Assembly (NCBI RefSeq): GCF_030295405.1
Contig: NZ_AP027080.1
Location: 1,054,001 to 1,118,000, forward strand
Length of the DNA: 64,000 nucleotides
From: Mesoterricola silvestris
GTDB taxonomy: Bacteria > Acidobacteriota > Holophagae > Holophagales > Holophagaceae
Direction: 5' to 3'
The translations under genes and the position numbers were made by a program. Of the stretch, positions 1,371 to 13,544 are shown one piece after another. The stretch's first letter is position 1. Every line of letters begins with the position of its first letter. The notes beneath the pieces are model-generated. The model saw only the letters and a program-made list of their open reading frames with translations, was not told the DNA's origin and searched no databases.

Positions 1371-1632
1371 TGGTCTGGCTCCAGCATGGACCTGACGTTC
1401 TTTATCCTGCCTTTTCCCCTGGATCCTGTTTATCCCCGTTTGAATTTCGCCGGGAGTTATCGCCACCTTTGGGTAAAGGACGTCGAGTAACCTGCGCTCC
1501 GATCCCCGCTGCGTCAGCCCTGCGGAAACAGGGATAAACGCCGATCAACGGGATGAACCGGGATACGCTCAACCTGGAACAGCCCCTTCATCACGGGTTC
1601 AAGGCACCTGGGGTTTGCCGACCCATTCTAGA
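1371..1632 (-). repeat. Intergenic repeat element, copy A (262 bp)
   Basis: Read on the minus strand, this gap aligns almost end to end with 34357-34619. Both begin with TCTAGA and GGGTCGGCAAACC, share GGCTGTTCCAGGTTGAG and CCGCAGGGCTGACGCAG, and end with GCTGGAGCCAGA. By eye identity is roughly 80-85 percent. The first bases contain the TAG stop of the SDR gene, and copy B contains the TAG stop of cysE in the same place. No convincing coding frame is present. Function unknown: it may be a terminator-like or mobile palindromic element, or a structured RNA. Confidence 0.8.
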
Positions 1633-2377
1633 GCATCATCCCGCCGCCGCCCGCCGAGAGGTACTGACCCGTGAGATAGCCCGCCTCGTCCGACGCCACC
1701 AGGGCGATGATCCCCGCCACGTCATCGGGCTGCCCGATGCGGCGCAGCGGCAGGCGGCTCCCGGCGGCGGCCTTGGCCGCCTCGGGGAAGTGGGCGGTGG
1801 CGTCGGTCTCGGTGAGGCCGGGGGCCACGACGTTCACGCGGATGCCGTGGGGGCCCAGCTCCAGGGCCAGGGACTTCATGAGGGCGTCCAGGCCCGACTT
1901 GGCGGTGGTGTGGGCGGAGAAGCCCTCCCCGGGCTGGCGGGAGAGGCCGCTGCTCACGGCGATGATGCACCCCTTGCCCCGGGCGATCATGCCCGGCACC
2001 GCGGCCTTGCAGGCGTGGAAGGCCGAGGCCAGCTCGCCCACGAGCTTCTGCTGGAAGCCCTCCCAGGGCATGGCGGTGAAGGGGGCCACGGGAAAGCTCA
2101 TGTTGGCGTTGAGCACCAGGGTGTCCACGGGGCCCAGGGCGGCCTCCACCTCCCGGAACAGGGTCTCCACCTGGCCCGGATCCCGGGCGTCCGCCCTGAA
2201 GGCCGCGGCCCTGCCGCCCGCGGCGGCGATGGCCTCCACGACGCCCTTGGCGGCGGCCTCGTTGGTGGCGTAGCTCACCGCCACGGCCGCGCCGTGGCTG
2301 GCCAGGCGGCGCGCGGTGGCGGCGCCGATGCCCCGGCCTCCGCCGGTGACGAGGATGGTACGGCCCTGGAGAAGCAT
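1628..2377 (-). CDS. SDR family oxidoreductase
   Basis: Short-chain dehydrogenase/reductase of about 249 residues, the usual size for classical FabG-like SDRs. The NAD(P)-binding motif TGGGRGIG lies near residue 10 and the active-site serine segment AVSSGLSR near 135. The catalytic Y-x-x-x-K site reads H-T-T-A-K, so histidine stands where tyrosine is expected. I chose the ATG at 2377 because AAGGAG lies just upstream; the longer in-frame extension to 2425 has no such support. It ends inside repeat copy A, and its 5' end faces the divergent ohr gene. Substrate unknown. Confidence 0.85.
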   Translation of the reverse strand: MLLQGRTILVTGGGRGIGAATARRLASHGAAVAVSYATNEAAAKGVVEAIAAAGGRAAAFRADARDPGQVETLFREVEAALGPVDTLVLNANMSFPVAPFTAMPWEGFQQKLVGELASAFHACKAAVPGMIARGKGCIIAVSSGLSRQPGEGFSAHTTAKSGLDALMKSLALELGPHGIRVNVVAPGLTETDATAHFPEAAKAAAGSRLPLRRIGQPDDVAGIIALVASDEAGYLTGQYLSAGGGGMML

Positions 2378-2531
2378 GGTGGACTCCTTGCCCAAGATCC
2401 TGCCCCGGTCGGCTCCGCCGCGCAACGGACCGCCGCCGGCGGCCGGAGGAAAAAGACCCTTGACGGGAGCCCGGAAAGAGATAAATATATCGCAAGCGAC
2501 ATAATCGTTGCCGACTCAAAAAGGATCAGCC

Positions 2532-2948
2532 ATGAACCCTCTCTACGAAATCAAGGCCTCGGCCAACGGCGGGCGCGCCGGGCGCGTCACCAGCGAAGAC
2601 GGCGTGCTGGACTTCCAGCTGGCGCTCCCCAAGGGGCTGGGCGGGCCCGGGGGCGCCCAGCCCAATCCCGAGATGCTCTTCGCGGCGGGGTACGCCGCGT
2701 GCTTCCAGAGCGCCCTGGGCTTCGTGGCCGGGGGCGCCAAGGTGCGGCTGGGCACCCAGCGCGTGGACGCGACGGTGGGCATCGGACCCAAGGACGGCGG
2801 GGGCTTCCAGCTCGCGGTGAAGCTCGAGGTGTACCTCCCCGACCTGCCCCGGGACCAGGCCCAGGCCTTCATGGAACAGGCCCATCAGGTGTGCCCCTAC
2901 TCCAACGCCGTGCGCGGCAACGTGCCGGTGGAGCTGGTGCTCCTGTGA
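2532..2948 (+). CDS. ohr: Organic hydroperoxide resistance protein Ohr (OsmC/Ohr family)
   Basis: Thiol peroxidase that reduces organic and fatty-acid hydroperoxides in the cytoplasm. The product is 138 residues, the typical Ohr length. Both redox cysteines are present: one in the helix reading YAACFQSAL near residue 58 and one in HQVCPYSNAV near 120. The ATG at 2532 follows an AAGGATC ribosome-binding stretch. The stop overlaps the GTG start of the MarR-type regulator, so the two are translated together. Ohr-OhrR pairs are a standard peroxide-sensing unit, and the pairing supports Ohr rather than generic OsmC. Confidence 0.93.
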   Translation: MNPLYEIKASANGGRAGRVTSEDGVLDFQLALPKGLGGPGGAQPNPEMLFAAGYAACFQSALGFVAGGAKVRLGTQRVDATVGIGPKDGGGFQLAVKLEVYLPDLPRDQAQAFMEQAHQVCPYSNAVRGNVPVELVLL

Positions 2949-3403
2949 GCGGCGCCGGCGCGGACCTCCTGCGCCTGGACCGCCAGCTCTGCTTTCCCCT
3001 CTACGCGGCCTCGCGGCTCGTGACGCGGCTCTACCAGCCGCTTCTCGAGCCGCTGGGGCTCACGTACCCGCAGTACATCATCCTGATGATCCTGTGGGAG
3101 GACGCTCCGTGCCCCGTTTCGCACCTGGGCGACCGGGCCCTGCTCAACACCAACACCCTGACTCCGCTCCTCAAGCGCCTGGAGCAAGCCGGATTCATCA
3201 CCCGGACCCGGAGCCGGAAGGACGAGCGGGTGGTGCGGGTGGACCTCACGCCCCGGGGCGCCGCCCTCAAGGGGGCGTGCGCCTGCGTCCCCGAGACCCT
3301 CGCCGGGGCCCTGGGCATCCCCGAAGGGGCCCTCGCCGACCTCAAATCGAAGCTGGACGCCCTGGTGGGCCACCTCAGGAGGCTGGAACAGCCGTCATGT
3401 TAG
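2945..3403 (+). CDS. ohrR: MarR family peroxide sensor OhrR
   Basis: Winged-helix repressor of 152 residues. The N-terminal DRQLCFPLYAASR carries the reactive cysteine conserved in OhrR near residue 16; oxidation of this residue by organic peroxides releases DNA in characterised members. The recognition region with LNTNTLTPLLKRLEQAGFI and the wing RSRKDERVVRVDLT are clear. The GTG start overlaps the TGA of ohr by four bases. It probably represses the ohr-ohrR promoter in the gap between the SDR gene and ohr. A second cysteine pair (CAC) occurs late in the protein; whether it marks a 2-Cys OhrR type cannot be told here. Confidence 0.9.
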   Translation: MSGAGADLLRLDRQLCFPLYAASRLVTRLYQPLLEPLGLTYPQYIILMILWEDAPCPVSHLGDRALLNTNTLTPLLKRLEQAGFITRTRSRKDERVVRVDLTPRGAALKGACACVPETLAGALGIPEGALADLKSKLDALVGHLRRLEQPSC

Positions 3404-8795: not shown

Positions 8796-8819
8796 CCTGA
8801 GGCTCACCCACCCCTCAGG
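8796..8819. terminator. Possible bidirectional hairpin between bioA and the convergent gene
   Basis: CCTGAGG at 8796-8802 pairs with CCTCAGG at 8813-8819, a 7-bp stem with a 10-base loop just after the bioA stop. It overlaps the stop of the convergent PEP-synthase-like gene. No run of T follows on either strand, so intrinsic termination is only a suggestion. Confidence 0.35.
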
Positions 8820-11779
8820 CTGCACCCGGGCTTGAGCACCACGCCCCGGTTGCGCCGGCCGTTCAGGGCCACCTCCAGGGGCGCCGCGAAGGCCAGGTGG
8901 CGCAGGTGTTCCGTCTCGTGGGCGGCCTCCTGGGCTTCCAGCCAGGGGAAGTCCAGCAGGTCCTCCCTGCCCTGGGATTCCACCGTGAGGTAGCCCACGC
9001 CGAAGGCCATGAGGTTCTGGAAGAAGTGCGATCCCTGGGAGGGGTCCACGTGCATGTCCCCCATGTCGGTCTCCACGATGCACCGGGCGCCGGCGATCTG
9101 GGACCAGGCCACGGGGATGCCCAGCCAGGGGTCGCCGCTGCCCCACCGGCCAGGGCCCACCAGGAGGTAGGGCCGGCCCTTGAGGCGCCGGTTCAGGTCG
9201 CCCACCTCGGCCGCGATCTCCCGGGTGCGCGCGCGGCTGAAGGTTCCGGGGCGCACGTACACCAGGTCCTGGATGCCCTCCAGGAAGCCGTTGCCCATGG
9301 CCATGCGCGAGGTGCAGATGGCGTCCCCGGGGCGGAGGGCGGCCATGGGGATGTCCTGGGCGTCGGTGCCCAGGACCATGGGCCGGATCTGCAGGAAGTC
9401 GAAGGCGTGGGGTTCGCCCGGGCTCCGGGAGAGGGTGACGGCGAATTCCATCTCCACGGGGCAGGAATTGGCGGCGGCGCCGGCCTTGAGCAGCAGCGTG
9501 AGCACCTCGCCCAGGGGGAAGACCCCGCCCTTGAACACGCCGGCCATGGTCACCAGGGGCACGCCGGGGCGGGAGCAGCCGTCGTAGATGGCGTCGTTGT
9601 CCGGGGAGTAGACGCCCCCCACGGGGTAGAGGGTGCCGTGCTCCCGGGCCGCGGCCAGGTCCAGGGTGGCCAGGTTGAGCATGCCGCCCTGGCCGGATCC
9701 GTGGCTTTCCAGGTCCAGGGCGAGGAACTCCCGCTGGGCGTTCTGCAGGTAGTCCCGGGGCGAGAACCACTGGAGGGGCTTCGCGGGCTGGGCGGGGCAG
9801 AAGCGCGCGCAGCGCCCGCCGTCCACCACCGTCTTGCCCAGGCCCAGGGCCACGGAGCCCACGCCCTCCTCCGGCTTCATGCCGGGCATGGGGTAGAAGT
9901 TCAGGGAGCGGCCCACCCCGGCGAAATCCGGGTACATGTAGCGCCCGTGGCGGCACCCCGCCATCTGCTGGATCACCACCGCCATCTTCTCCTCCTCCAC
10001 GCGGTTGGGCGTGGACTGGAGGTAGGCCTTGGCCTCGGAGTGGAAGGTGGAGGCGTAGACGCGCTTCACCGCGTCGCCCAGCCGGGCCAGGCGCAGCTCG
10101 GGGTCCTCCTCGTTGTTGGGGATCATGTACGTCTCGTAGATCCCCGCGAAGGGCTGGTAGGACGCGTCCTCCAGCAGGCTGGAGGAGCGCACCGCGAGGG
10201 GGTAGCGGATCCAGTCCAGGAAGGTCCACAGGGCGTCCACCGCCTCCCGGGGCAGGTCCGCCGCCAGGAAGGCCCGGGTGATGGCGTCGTTGTCCTGCTC
10301 CTGCTGCGCGAAGGCCCGCAGCCCGGAACCGTCCATGAACTGGTCGAAGACGCTGGTGGCCAGGACCAGGGTGGGGGGCACGGCGATGCGGATGCCCGGG
10401 AAGCGGTTCTCCAGGTGGTACGACGTGATCAGGGAATTCACGAAGGCCAGGCCCCGGCCCTTGCCGCCCAGGGAGCCCGTGCCCAGGCGCACGAAGCGGC
10501 TGCTCCCCTCGAAGCCCGTGGGGGAGAACTCCGCCACGACCCCCGCGCCCACCCGGGCCCGGTGCGCATGGAGGGCCTGGAGGATCCCCCGGCGCAGCTC
10601 CTCCCCGGAGGGGGTGCGGGCGATGATCCGCGCCAGGGTCCCGCTCAGCTCGAATTCCGTGCGCACCCGGAGCCATTTGCTGAAGTCGCCCCGGGCGGCA
10701 TGGAATTCCAGGCTCTCCAGGGGCACCGCCTGCACCGACCATTCCAGGCTGCGGAGGTCGTCGGCCTTGGAGACGACGGTCCCCAGGTTGTCCCGGAAGA
10801 TGAATTCGCCGAAGCCCAGGTAGTCCTGCATGAAGGTGCGCAGCTCCTGGCGGAGGTCCGGGGAGCGCTTGTCCACGAAGGTCACCGCCGAGCCGGGCCC
10901 GGGGCTCCAGAATTCGGAGGTGGACTGCACGAGGATGGGGATGTCCCGGGAGCCCTCCTCCACGATCCGCGCGAAGGCCGGGCCCGCGGCGGGGTCCATG
11001 CGGCCCTCCCGGGGGAAGGCGATGTCCAGGATCACGCCCACCAGGTCCTCCCGGAAGGTGCGGTAGAGCTCCAGGGCCTGCTCGAAGGTGTGGGCCAGGA
11101 GGATCTTGGGCCGGGCGCGGCGCCGGATGATGCGCTGGGAGCGGTTCACCCCCTCGGCCATGAGGGTCAGGGTCTGTTTCATGACCTCGGTGTACAGCTC
11201 GGGCAGGTTGGCGGAATAGAAGGGGACGCTGTCCTCCACCACCAGGATGCACTTCACCCCGGCGAGCCGCGCGTCGTGCCAGGCGTTGAGGTGGTCCTCC
11301 ACCAGCTTGATCATGGCCAGGAACAGGCGCACGTCACCCAGCCACACGAAGACGTCGTGGATGCCCTTGAGGTCCGTGAGGGGCTGCAGCTGCGCCAGTT
11401 CCCGCAGGCTGCTGGCCAGGAGGATCACCGGCAGCCCCGGGGCCCTCTCCTGCACCCGTTCCCCGAATTCCCGGACGTTCATCTCCCCCACCCGGGGCAT
11501 GGAGATCACCAGGTCGAAGTCCATGCGGGTGATGAGGTCCAGGGCCTCCAGGGCCGTGGACACCCGCTGGATATGCGGGGAGTACTGCAGGTTGAGCTCC
11601 ATGAACTCGTTGAGCAGCATTTCCGAGAGCCGTCCGTCCTCGATGAACGTGTAGCTGTCGTAGAGGCTCGTCACCAGGAGCAGGTTGTTGACCCGCTTCG
11701 GGATGAGGGAGTCGTAGAGCGTCTCGGTCTGTTCCGGGATGCCGAGGAGGTCGTCCAGGATCCGGTCACGCATGGTCAT
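8804..11779 (-). CDS. Receiver-PEP synthase-like ATP-grasp protein (PPDK_N domain)
   Basis: Cytoplasmic protein of about 991 residues. Residues 1-150 look like a degenerate receiver (no acceptor aspartate, no lysine). Residues 165-330 look like a full receiver: acidic pair in ILVVEDS, acceptor in VILDIAFP, LVQSTSE, and lysine in VTFVDKRS. A PEP-synthase/PPDK ATP-grasp domain follows, with GSLGGKGRGLAF, RSSSLLEDASYQPFAG, LGLGKTVV and a closing FLQIRPM. The C-terminus carries GPGRWGSGDPWLGIP instead of the phosphohistidine and PEP-binding domains, so classical PEP synthesis looks impossible. I chose ATG 11779; the 5' extension to 12061 would run into the divergent gene. It is divergent from the GAF protein, 79 bp away, which suggests a shared regulatory unit. 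Confidence 0.82.
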   Translation of the reverse strand: MTMRDRILDDLLGIPEQTETLYDSLIPKRVNNLLLVTSLYDSYTFIEDGRLSEMLLNEFMELNLQYSPHIQRVSTALEALDLITRMDFDLVISMPRVGEMNVREFGERVQERAPGLPVILLASSLRELAQLQPLTDLKGIHDVFVWLGDVRLFLAMIKLVEDHLNAWHDARLAGVKCILVVEDSVPFYSANLPELYTEVMKQTLTLMAEGVNRSQRIIRRRARPKILLAHTFEQALELYRTFREDLVGVILDIAFPREGRMDPAAGPAFARIVEEGSRDIPILVQSTSEFWSPGPGSAVTFVDKRSPDLRQELRTFMQDYLGFGEFIFRDNLGTVVSKADDLRSLEWSVQAVPLESLEFHAARGDFSKWLRVRTEFELSGTLARIIARTPSGEELRRGILQALHAHRARVGAGVVAEFSPTGFEGSSRFVRLGTGSLGGKGRGLAFVNSLITSYHLENRFPGIRIAVPPTLVLATSVFDQFMDGSGLRAFAQQEQDNDAITRAFLAADLPREAVDALWTFLDWIRYPLAVRSSSLLEDASYQPFAGIYETYMIPNNEEDPELRLARLGDAVKRVYASTFHSEAKAYLQSTPNRVEEEKMAVVIQQMAGCRHGRYMYPDFAGVGRSLNFYPMPGMKPEEGVGSVALGLGKTVVDGGRCARFCPAQPAKPLQWFSPRDYLQNAQREFLALDLESHGSGQGGMLNLATLDLAAAREHGTLYPVGGVYSPDNDAIYDGCSRPGVPLVTMAGVFKGGVFPLGEVLTLLLKAGAAANSCPVEMEFAVTLSRSPGEPHAFDFLQIRPMVLGTDAQDIPMAALRPGDAICTSRMAMGNGFLEGIQDLVYVRPGTFSRARTREIAAEVGDLNRRLKGRPYLLVGPGRWGSGDPWLGIPVAWSQIAGARCIVETDMGDMHVDPSQGSHFFQNLMAFGVGYLTVESQGREDLLDFPWLEAQEAAHETEHLRHLAFAAPLEVALNGRRNRGVVLKPGCSLRGG

Positions 11780-11858
11780 TTCCGGGAAGGTGACCGCATC
11801 ATAGCATCGAAGTTCGGGCAGAATACTTGCTGGCGACGTCCATTCCGGAGGTTCCGGC

Positions 11859-12896
11859 ATGATCGAGTCCACCCACGACGGCAATCCGCTCCTCACCTGG
11901 GGGGGCGCGCCCCACTTCCGGTTCCGGGACCTGCTCCACCGGCTCTTCTCCATGGCCAACCAGGGCTTCCTGCGCCTGGAGTTCCTCCAGATGGCCACGG
12001 GCTCGATCCTGGAGTTCCTGGCCTGCGATGTGCTGGAAGTGTGCCTGGAGGAGGGCGGCAAACGGTACCGCTGCCGGGCGGAGGCGGGGGAGGGGGGCCT
12101 GCGCTTCTATTCCGGCCTCGATGCGGGGGACCCTGCCCAGCTCCCGGACCAGATCCTGGCCTCGGTGCTGCGGGGGCAGTTCCTGGCCGCCTCCCCCTTC
12201 TCCACCCGGGCCGGGAGCTTCTGGACCAGCGATTCCTCCCGCCCGGTGCTTCTACGGGAGAACGGCCGCCACGACGCCCAGGCGCATTCCGTGGTCATCG
12301 GGGGGGACTACCGTTCCCTGGCCTTCGTGCCCGTGCCCGTGGACGAGCGCATCCGGGGCGTGCTGCACCTGGGGAGCCGCAAGGCGGACCACTTCACTCG
12401 GAACGATGTGCAATTCTTCGAGGGCGTGGGGGAGACCCTGGGCGTGGCGGTGGCCTTCCAGGCCGCCCAGTGGGCCCTGCGGGAACGGGTCAAGGAGCTG
12501 GACTGCCTGTACGGCATCGCCCAGGTTTCCCAGCGGGACGGCGGCACCCTGGACGACCAGATGCAGGCCATCGTGGAGCTCCTGCCACCCGCCTGGCAGT
12601 ACCCCGAGCTCACCTGCGCGCGCATCCTCCTCAATGGCAGGTGCTTCGACACCCCGGGCTTCCAGGAGACCCCCTGGCGCCAGGAGGCGGGCCTGGTGGT
12701 GGCGGGAAAGCTCCGCGGCGCCGTGCGGGTGCATTACCTGCGGGAGATGCCCGCCTTCGACGAGGGCCCCTTCCTGCAGGAGGAGCGCAACCTCATCGAG
12801 GAGGTGGCCCACCAGGTGGGCCTGCTGGTGAACCGCGGCGAGGACGCCCTGGCCAAGGCCAAGCTGTTCCACATGCTGGAACAGCGGCGGGAGTGA
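11859..12896 (+). CDS. Tandem GAF-like domain protein
   Basis: Soluble protein of 345 residues with no signal peptide. The first half (about 20-200) ends in the GAF-like signature SLAFVPVPVDERIRGVLHLGS followed by DVQFFEGVGETLGVAVA. The second half (about 215-335) repeats the pattern, with LLPPAWQYPELTCARILLNG and EERNLIEEVAHQVGLLVN. The same second-domain pattern sits upstream of PAS or kinase modules in many sensor proteins, but here the chain ends without an output domain. It is divergent from the receiver-ATP-grasp gene and may act with it. Ligand unknown. Confidence 0.75.
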   Translation: MIESTHDGNPLLTWGGAPHFRFRDLLHRLFSMANQGFLRLEFLQMATGSILEFLACDVLEVCLEEGGKRYRCRAEAGEGGLRFYSGLDAGDPAQLPDQILASVLRGQFLAASPFSTRAGSFWTSDSSRPVLLRENGRHDAQAHSVVIGGDYRSLAFVPVPVDERIRGVLHLGSRKADHFTRNDVQFFEGVGETLGVAVAFQAAQWALRERVKELDCLYGIAQVSQRDGGTLDDQMQAIVELLPPAWQYPELTCARILLNGRCFDTPGFQETPWRQEAGLVVAGKLRGAVRVHYLREMPAFDEGPFLQEERNLIEEVAHQVGLLVNRGEDALAKAKLFHMLEQRRE

Positions 12897-13544
12897 TCAG
12901 GCCTCCCGGCCCAGGCCGAAGCGCAGGCCGGCCTCCTTCACGATGGCCTCCACGCAGGCCTCGGGGCCCAGGGCCGAGGGGTCCAGCACCAGGTCGAAGT
13001 GCCGGGGATCCCGCCAGTCCGCGCCGGATATGGCCCGGATGAAGCCGGCCCGGCCCCGGTCGGAGTCCTCGATGGCCGCCAGGGCCGCGCGCCGGTCAGC
13101 GACCTTGTGGCGCCGCATCAGGGATTCGATGCGGAATTCCAGGTCCGCGTGGAGGCTCACGTGGAGGGCGTCCGGCCGGTCCTTCAGGGCGATGAAGCCG
13201 CCCCGCCCCACGATCACCGAGGGGGCGTGTTCCACCATGCGCTGCATCACCGCCCGCTGCACGTCGAAGAGATCCCGGCTGTAGATGGGCACCTCCTTCA
13301 GCAGGGTGAATGGCGCCTCCGGCGAACCCAGGGCGAAGATCGTCATGAGCCAGTCCTTGAATCCGCAGGGATGGTCCTCCTGGTGGGCGAGGCTGGCCAC
13401 GGAGTGCCCCATGGCCCCCGCGGCGAGGCGGAGGATCCGCCGGTCGCAGAAGTGCCACCCCAGGCGCCGCGCCACCAGGAAGCCCACTTCCGTGCCGCCG
13501 CTGCCGAGGCTGCGGGAAATCGTGATGGCGGGGTGGCTCGTCAT
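12897..13544 (-). CDS. Cytidylate kinase-like family protein (AAK/PF13189 type)
   Basis: A 215-residue P-loop kinase-fold protein. The N-terminus ITISRSLGSGGTEVG is the lysine-free P-loop of the cytidylate-kinase-like family, and VIVGRGGFIALKDRP near 110 is the second typical block; LHADLEFRIESLMRR and GAD-WRDPRHFDLVLD complete it. ATG 13544 is favoured by GGAGG at the right distance; in-frame codons upstream lack this. A second member of the family lies at 32219-32926. Real substrates of this family are mostly unknown, so I do not call it CMP kinase. Confidence 0.8.
   Translation of the reverse strand: MTSHPAITISRSLGSGGTEVGFLVARRLGWHFCDRRILRLAAGAMGHSVASLAHQEDHPCGFKDWLMTIFALGSPEAPFTLLKEVPIYSRDLFDVQRAVMQRMVEHAPSVIVGRGGFIALKDRPDALHVSLHADLEFRIESLMRRHKVADRRAALAAIEDSDRGRAGFIRAISGADWRDPRHFDLVLDPSALGPEACVEAIVKEAGLRFGLGREA

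Follow-up and report, generated by a model that had tools for sequence, protein, structure and literature searches.

Our analyses of a 64,000 nucleotide stretch of the Mesoterricola silvestris genome (hereafter the window; G000:C1:1054001-1118000 of the 4.99-Mb genome) have identified a 991 amino acid (aa) protein in which two receiver domains precede a PPDK_N ATP-grasp domain and a C-terminal domain whose predicted fold is that of the swivelling phosphohistidine domains. The commonest neighbour of the protein family to which it belongs (family A) is glutamate dehydrogenase (GDH), a linkage which does not prove regulation of GDH. We propose, with about even confidence in the proposal being correct, that the 991 aa protein resembles VadK in being an autophosphorylating switch, gated by its receiver and operating at the GDH node. 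The protein is encoded by an open reading frame (ORF) with an ATG start, divergent from the gene of a partner protein, and the features of the two genes are given below.

8804..11779, minus strand: REC-REC-PPDK_N-swivel protein (family A), 991 aa (ORF, Pfam, structure model, structure comparison)
11294..11692, minus strand: receiver 1, about aa 30-162, degenerate, the phospho-acceptor position not being Asp (Pfam, conservation, structure)
10814..11257, minus strand: receiver 2, about aa 175-322, with the full set of acidic pair, D252, S286 and K304 (conservation, structure)
11024..11026, minus strand: D252, predicted phospho-acceptor, in 69 of 69 homologues (conservation)
9374..10501, minus strand: PPDK_N ATP-grasp domain, about aa 427-802 (Pfam, conservation, structure)
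8807..9373, minus strand: putative diverged swivelling (phosphohistidine-type) domain, aa 803-991 (conservation, model, structure comparison; sequence methods negative)
9026..9028, minus strand: H918, invariant His at a predicted helix N-terminus, in the motif S-Q-G-[ST]-H-F-F (conservation, model)
11780..11858, no strand: intergenic region between the divergent genes, 79 bp (ORF limits)
11859..12896, plus strand: partner protein, 345 aa, GAF and ERV domains without an output domain (ORF, Pfam, homologue search, locus comparison)
11931..12458, plus strand: GAF domain of the partner, about aa 25-200 (best Pfam stretch aa 113-198; N-terminal limit by eye)
12474..12848, plus strand: ERV domain (a label coined here), aa 206-330, GAF-like (homologue and fusion comparison)

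Receiver and ATP-Grasp Domains of the 991 aa Protein

An AlphaFold2 model of the protein, built on 69 homologues (mean pLDDT 84.2; model residue n is protein residue n+1), is laid out as receiver 1, receiver 2, a helical linker, the ATP-grasp domain and the C-terminal domain. Pfam assigns Response_reg to the first receiver (1.4e-5, under the curated cut-off), while the second was detected by structure, model residues 174-322 aligning with many receivers; both receiver regions score Z values of about 11-12.8 against known receivers. The residues E182, D252, K304 and S/T286 of receiver 2 are each present in all 69 homologues, and D183 in 64 (N in the other 5), giving this domain the acidic pair, phospho-Asp, Ser/Thr and Lys of a response regulator. 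The phospho-acceptor position of receiver 1 is S/T in 53 of the 69 homologues, and Asp is not among its commonest residues. Next to the 991 aa gene, we saw no kinase that could phosphorylate D252.

The PPDK_N domain of PEP synthase and PPDK was identified both by Pfam (E 3.9e-33, residues 436-802) and by structure comparison, in which the full model aligned with RPH (5hv1; Z 26.8, 286 residues), PEP synthase (2ols; Z 26.7, 363 residues, model 412-986) and PPDK (1dik; Z 18.5, 349 residues, model 426-983 to 7-510). Seven residues of this domain (viz. K440, R531, E776, E778, Q797, R799, and P800), which we take to correspond by motif to the PPDK/PEPS set, are each found in 69 of 69 homologues, and the position that is presumably the Glu of the GLGE motif is replaced by Lys or Arg in 64 of the 69. 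In RPH, Lys22 and the ATP-binding Arg117 are essential, and Glu297 coordinates Mg yet is dispensable (PMC4844700); hence, the loss of one acidic residue need not abolish activity.

The PEP/pyruvate-binding C-terminal TIM-barrel domain has no Pfam match anywhere in the 991 aa, and the protein stops about 190 aa past the ATP-grasp domain. NCBIfam matches are confined to the ATP-grasp part, including a match to RPH that covers that part alone and falls far below the cut-off, and the model has no room for a rifampin-binding domain between the ATP-grasp and His domains. These results from Pfam, structure, and residue conservation bear out a first-pass annotation of the window, which had described two receivers, one degenerate and one complete, together with a PPDK_N ATP-grasp domain, and had noted that the PEP/pyruvate domain is missing; the ORFs and the Pfam GAF_2 and GAF matches likewise agree with its description of a divergent GAF gene, 79 bp away, without an output domain.

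Two other genes of the window may be mentioned here. A Cytidylate_kin2 gene (12897-13535, minus strand) and the gene of the GAF partner are arranged tail to tail, their stop codons adjoining; such a gene is also near the partner in genomes G077 and G074 and beside a family A gene in L081. A 616 aa ORF (1553-3403, plus strand) has a MarR-type domain (aa 492-570) as its only Pfam match, the first 490 residues having none.

The C-Terminal Domain and H918

The same annotation held that the protein lacks a phosphohistidine domain, and here our results differ from it. Residues 805-991 at the C-terminus form a folded domain in which one His is invariant, and G877, R878, G880, L886, G887, E903, S914, G916, H918, F919, and N922 are each conserved in 69 of 69 homologues. 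Modelled alone on 66 sequences, the domain reached a pLDDT of 90.5, and H918 opens a helix (116-123 of this model) that comes after a strand-helix-strand order as in a phosphoryl-carrier domain. The model has a swivelling beta/beta/alpha fold with a His at a helix N-terminus, where the residue equivalence follows the order of elements and not coordinates. In a structure search with this model, the top 16 of 50 rows were phosphohistidine-type domains (Z 6.0-7.6, 104-129 residues). They come from PPDK (one being the isolated carrier domain 2fm4), from RPH (residues 756-867), from Enzyme I, and from a Bacillus pyruvate kinase, whose extra domain we take to be kin of the phosphohistidine domains. 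The rows that follow are other swivelling-fold proteins, presumably of one swivelling-fold class, with a Z of 5.9 that is level with the lowest of the 16, and all Z values against phosphohistidine-type domains are below 8.

Sequence-based comparisons gave no such link. PF00391 was found by Pfam in 0 of 66 members at E<=10, hhalign against 10 and 20 true phosphohistidine domains returned probabilities <1%, and a profile search of the PDB gave no connection to a phosphohistidine domain. Foldseek on the C-terminal model returned nothing at E<=0.001 (the best hit, at 9e-3, being an unrelated protein), and the classical GG.TSHA motif has left no sequence trace in the domain. The structure prediction that the annotation had itself suggested for the C-terminus finds a swivelling fold with an invariant His (H918, 69 of 69) and no PEP domain, and the sequence profiles do not confirm homology. 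That the domain has a swivelling phosphohistidine-type fold is well supported by the models, and it is likely that it descends from and functions as a phosphohistidine carrier.

Distribution of Family A

Within the class, 70 of 93 genomes contain a match to the 991 aa protein at E<=1e-20, some of these matches being to a paralogue (family B, described below) only. A pattern scan of 84,980 species genomes identified at least 586 encoded relatives, and the best 80 of these, which were taken for locus analysis, span the Acidobacteriota, Bacteroidota, Ignavibacteria, Gemmatimonadota, Zixibacteria, Desulfobacterales, Desulfosporosinus, and others. Plasmid records yielded 3 relatives, one of them annotated, as a "PEP/pyruvate-binding domain-containing protein". 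This receiver-PPDK_N family is widespread and is uncharacterised in the literature searched, where we found nothing in print on either the protein or its GDH link (the search covered open-access literature, which leaves absence unproven).

The lengths of the homologues' open frames vary widely inside one genus. Some frames of 1200-1400 codons raised the possibility of a GDH/REC-PPDK gene fusion, which was set aside, the two genes being in different frames in L140. Adjacent family A genes were observed in tandem (L059:3663-9676) and face to face (L149:5242-11424), which suggests paralogous pairs, possibly cooperating.

Linkage of Family A to Glutamate Dehydrogenase

All-against-all comparison of the ORFs flanking family A revealed one outstanding neighbour family, recognised by eye as NADP-type GDH; the Pfam name for the GDHs encoded in the window's genome is ELFV dehydrogenase. 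A GDH gene is located within 1.2 kb of family A in 48 of the 80 loci (within 600 bp in 46) and at 1.2-10 kb in 5, and was not found in 27, some of which merely end at a contig edge. The fraction with GDH within 1.2 kb is 35/51 for loci with at least 1.5 kb known on both sides and 18/27 for those with at least 9 kb on both sides; for the latter loci, GDH is at 1.2-10 kb in 1 and absent nearby in 8. The 48 closely linked GDH genes are mostly upstream and co-directional (29 loci), with 14 downstream and co-directional and 5 convergent. As a control, 20 regions around other PEP-utilizers genes (PPDK, PEPS, and the like) in the window's and related genomes were examined with flanks of at most about 5 kb each, 3 of them stopping at a contig end or start, and GDH was present in none. 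An earlier control with PF00391-match loci (GDH in 0 of 28) was dropped, because these loci barely exceed the gene and 3 overlap others. Several neighbour "families" that proved to be shadow ORFs on the opposite strand were also disregarded.

Among the class loci, GDH is directly upstream in family-1 genomes (L138-L140, L153, L154, and partial L155) and family-2 genomes (L141-L143) and is downstream and convergent in L144; it was not seen in the stretches of L145-L147 and L152. In a tree built by a quick method with no bootstrap, in which rows marked "-" include loci without GDH assessment and L113 and L147 are long branches, GDH-linked members occur in all large clades, and hence the association, judged from these sequences, looks old. 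The gdhA gene of the window's genome is located at G000:C1:3510882 and does not adjoin the 991 aa gene. Upstream of this main gdhA is a gene for a 1258 aa protein (L216:6677-10453, minus strand, equal to G000:C1:3512676-3516452), whose sole match is weak and cytidylyltransferase-like (4.8e-4).

Recurrent neighbours other than GDH and families A and B are limited to a handful of loci at most. A SudB/NfnA-like and GltD-like pair, identified by eye near the REC-PPDK gene in seven loci (viz. L061, L073, L080, L095, L130, L132, and L136), is another pointer to glutamate metabolism. Look-alikes of GTP cyclohydrolase I and 6-pyruvoyl-tetrahydropterin synthase, also recognised by eye, are found near this gene in L079, L116, and L122.

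The GAF-ERV Partner

The 345 aa partner is matched by the Pfam families GAF_2 (2.5e-10) and GAF (8e-9) and by no output domain. The ERV domain in its second half has no Pfam family of its own; its motif (ERVKELxCLYxIS...LPPAWQYP...EGPFLxEER) recurs in histidine kinases and PPDK_N proteins (window, L041, L045, L049, and L050). A full-length partner (53-100% identical) is present in 5 of the 31 genomes searched, all 5 of which also hold an orthologue of the 991 aa protein that is at least 65% identical. Of the 6 genomes from the genus, 4 contain both genes and 2 contain neither. The two genes are divergent and 79-163 bp apart in 4 of the 5 genomes, and in the fifth, from a sister genus (L149), GDH lies in between, in the order GAF-ERV (minus), GDH (minus, with a run of N inside it) and REC-PPDK (plus).

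In the Bacteroidales, a receiver-receiver-PPDK protein carries the ERV domain as an N-terminal fusion (L115, full sequence), and ERV matches occur at the same place in L106, L114, L116, L117, L118, L122, L123, and L127. The domain is also fused to family B, and in L041 a GAF domain accompanies it in a fusion to HisKA-HATPase. In view of these fusions, the partner looks like the sensor half of a histidine kinase minus the kinase, functionally attached to the REC-PPDK protein. The first-pass annotation had suggested that the two divergent genes encode a sensor and its effector and had called for a neighbourhood survey of the GAF gene; the clade-wide co-occurrence in 5 of 5 genomes, together with the ERV fusions in homologues, supports this pairing.

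Family B

The genome of the window also encodes a 913 aa paralogue (family B). Its N-terminal domain is a homologue of the GAF partner's second half, and this is followed by PPDK_N and by a C-terminal GPGRWG...S-x-G-T-H-F-F domain that is shared with family A. The gene of this paralogue is located 385 bp downstream of another ELFV dehydrogenase. A search of the phylum for family B gave 41 matches in 38 of 149 genomes, and 30 loci were examined, all of which have the GPGRWG and S-F-G-T-H motifs. GDH was present in the 1.5-kb flanks of 22 of these loci, 4 more have family A instead, and the remaining 4, of which one lies at a contig end, lack both. Two longer family B proteins (L120:1185-4367, plus strand; L067:12909-16109, minus strand) carry a nucleotidyltransferase domain at the C-terminus (NTP_transf_2, 6.4e-7 and 2.3e-5), which is possibly a second covalent-modification activity beside GDH.

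Proposed Role and Alternative Explanations

The 991 aa protein has the same two modules as VadK, behind a complete receiver and in a family linked to GDH, and it is on these grounds that we propose a receiver-gated autophosphorylating switch. Such a response regulator would have as its output a two-domain core of the PEP-synthase type, with an ATP-grasp domain and a swivelling His carrier and without the PEP/pyruvate domain. Phosphate from ATP would be placed on H918, a step that phosphorylation of D252 in receiver 2 would gate, and the phosphorylated or ATP-bound form may then act on an enzyme of the glutamate node, ancestrally GDH, by binding or by phosphate transfer, as proposed for VadK and the enzymes of the methylcitrate cycle. 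In this lineage, in which gdhA has ceased to be a neighbour and the gene is paired with that of the GAF-ERV protein, the latter probably supplies a metabolite or redox signal, presumably by direct contact.

The main rival to this proposal, which we consider unlikely, is a non-catalytic switch in which the ATP-grasp domain senses ATP or AMP, the C-terminal arm docks on GDH or another partner, and H918 is structural or binds a ligand, an idea that the first-pass annotation had raised as a phosphorylation-gated ATP-binding switch. Replacement of the GLGE Glu by a basic residue, seen in 64 of 69 homologues, and the missing trace of GG.TSHA are consistent with such a switch, as is the invariant set of R878, G880, E903, S914, H918, and N922, which exceeds the needs of a simple carrier domain. 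However, the strict conservation (69/69) of K440, R531, E776, E778, Q797, and R799 is unusual for a pseudo-enzyme, and the Mg-coordinating Glu297 is dispensable in RPH (PMC4844700). A metabolic phosphotransferase, in which a small molecule (a 2-oxo acid or glutamate) is phosphorylated while bound by a separate protein, possibly GDH, has a precedent in split dikinases such as HpeHI (PMC12167813), whose HpeI is among the top matches of the ATP-grasp domain. The two receivers and the fusions to a sensor domain better suit a regulator, and apart from GDH, itself a binder of 2-oxo acid, no third-domain protein recurs in the neighbourhoods; we regard this reading as improbable.

We attach a similarly low probability to the view that the GDH adjacency is accidental or reflects shared transcription only, the true target being another protein such as the GAF partner. 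GDH is indeed not adjacent in the genus of the window and is absent near 8 of the 27 fully flanked homologues, but an accident would have to account for three orientations in many phyla, two paralogous families beside GDH and a control of 0/20. That the protein is a degenerate or true PEP synthase or PPDK for gluconeogenesis, with its receivers as regulatory additions, is scarcely credible: the PPDK_N homology and overall fold would agree with this role, but it is largely refuted by the lack of a PEP/pyruvate domain in the 991 aa, and a separate protein with PPDK_N and PF00391, apparently a bona fide PPDK, is encoded at G000:C1:3140107-3141606.

Returning to the receiver-gated switch, GDH is a meeting point of carbon and nitrogen metabolism, and to our knowledge few bacterial ways of controlling it have been described. 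The adjacency to GDH suggests an unrecognised route of carbon-nitrogen control, and a receiver-controlled module of the PEP-synthase type beside GDH would be a common and overlooked control layer in the Acidobacteriota, Bacteroidota, Ignavibacteria, Gemmatimonadota, and many other groups. On that view, VadK-like dikinases lacking a PEP domain would have become regulators more than once. More tentatively, and with considerable doubt, families A (receiver-gated) and B (ERV-fused, in some cases with a nucleotidyltransferase) may together form a bacteria-wide system of covalent GDH control, in which A would phosphorylate or grip GDH via H918~P and B would modify or release it, both in response to two-component and GAF-type signals. 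The role of such a system would be like that of the proteins which modify glutamine synthetase and PII.

Comparison with Known Systems

In PPDK, PEPS, and RPH, phosphate from ATP is transferred to a His which swings to a third domain (PMC4844700). The 991 aa protein shares with RPH, PEP synthase and PPDK the ATP-grasp fold, the ATP-site residues and the fold of the swivel-type domain, and differs from them in having no substrate-binding third domain, two receivers in front, and a C-terminal domain without detectable sequence homology to PF00391. VadK (Rv1127c) of Mycobacterium tuberculosis autophosphorylates His422 without a PEP domain and contacts metabolic enzymes, its first two PPDK-type domains sufficing for autophosphorylation and for regulation of these enzymes (PMC13400623). 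Both proteins have a PPDK-derived ATP-binding domain and a phosphohistidine domain (for the 991 aa protein at the level of fold only) and no PEP domain, and by analogy we propose autophosphorylation and binding of metabolic enzymes for the 991 aa protein. In contrast to it, VadK has no receivers and a classical phosphohistidine domain that overlays that of PPDK, and it acts on the methylcitrate cycle rather than on GDH and in other lineages (PMC13400623). The two-component dikinase HpeHI, whose ATP-grasp component HpeI is among the best matches, differs in being a small-molecule kinase with the swivel and substrate domains on a second protein and with no receivers (PMC12167813).

Like the response regulators with enzymatic output, such as PleD and PorX, the 991 aa protein has receivers, one of them complete, ahead of an output domain; its output is an ATP-grasp/swivel core of the PEP-synthase type. 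PPDK-derived regulatory kinases and enzymatic response regulators are known kinds nearby, and we did not find the present architecture, or its link to GDH, in the open-access literature. GarA/OdhI-PknG and Thermus APRTh are known regulators of GDH and are proteins unrelated to the 991 aa protein; the post-translational control of GDH that they exert is the role that we propose for it.
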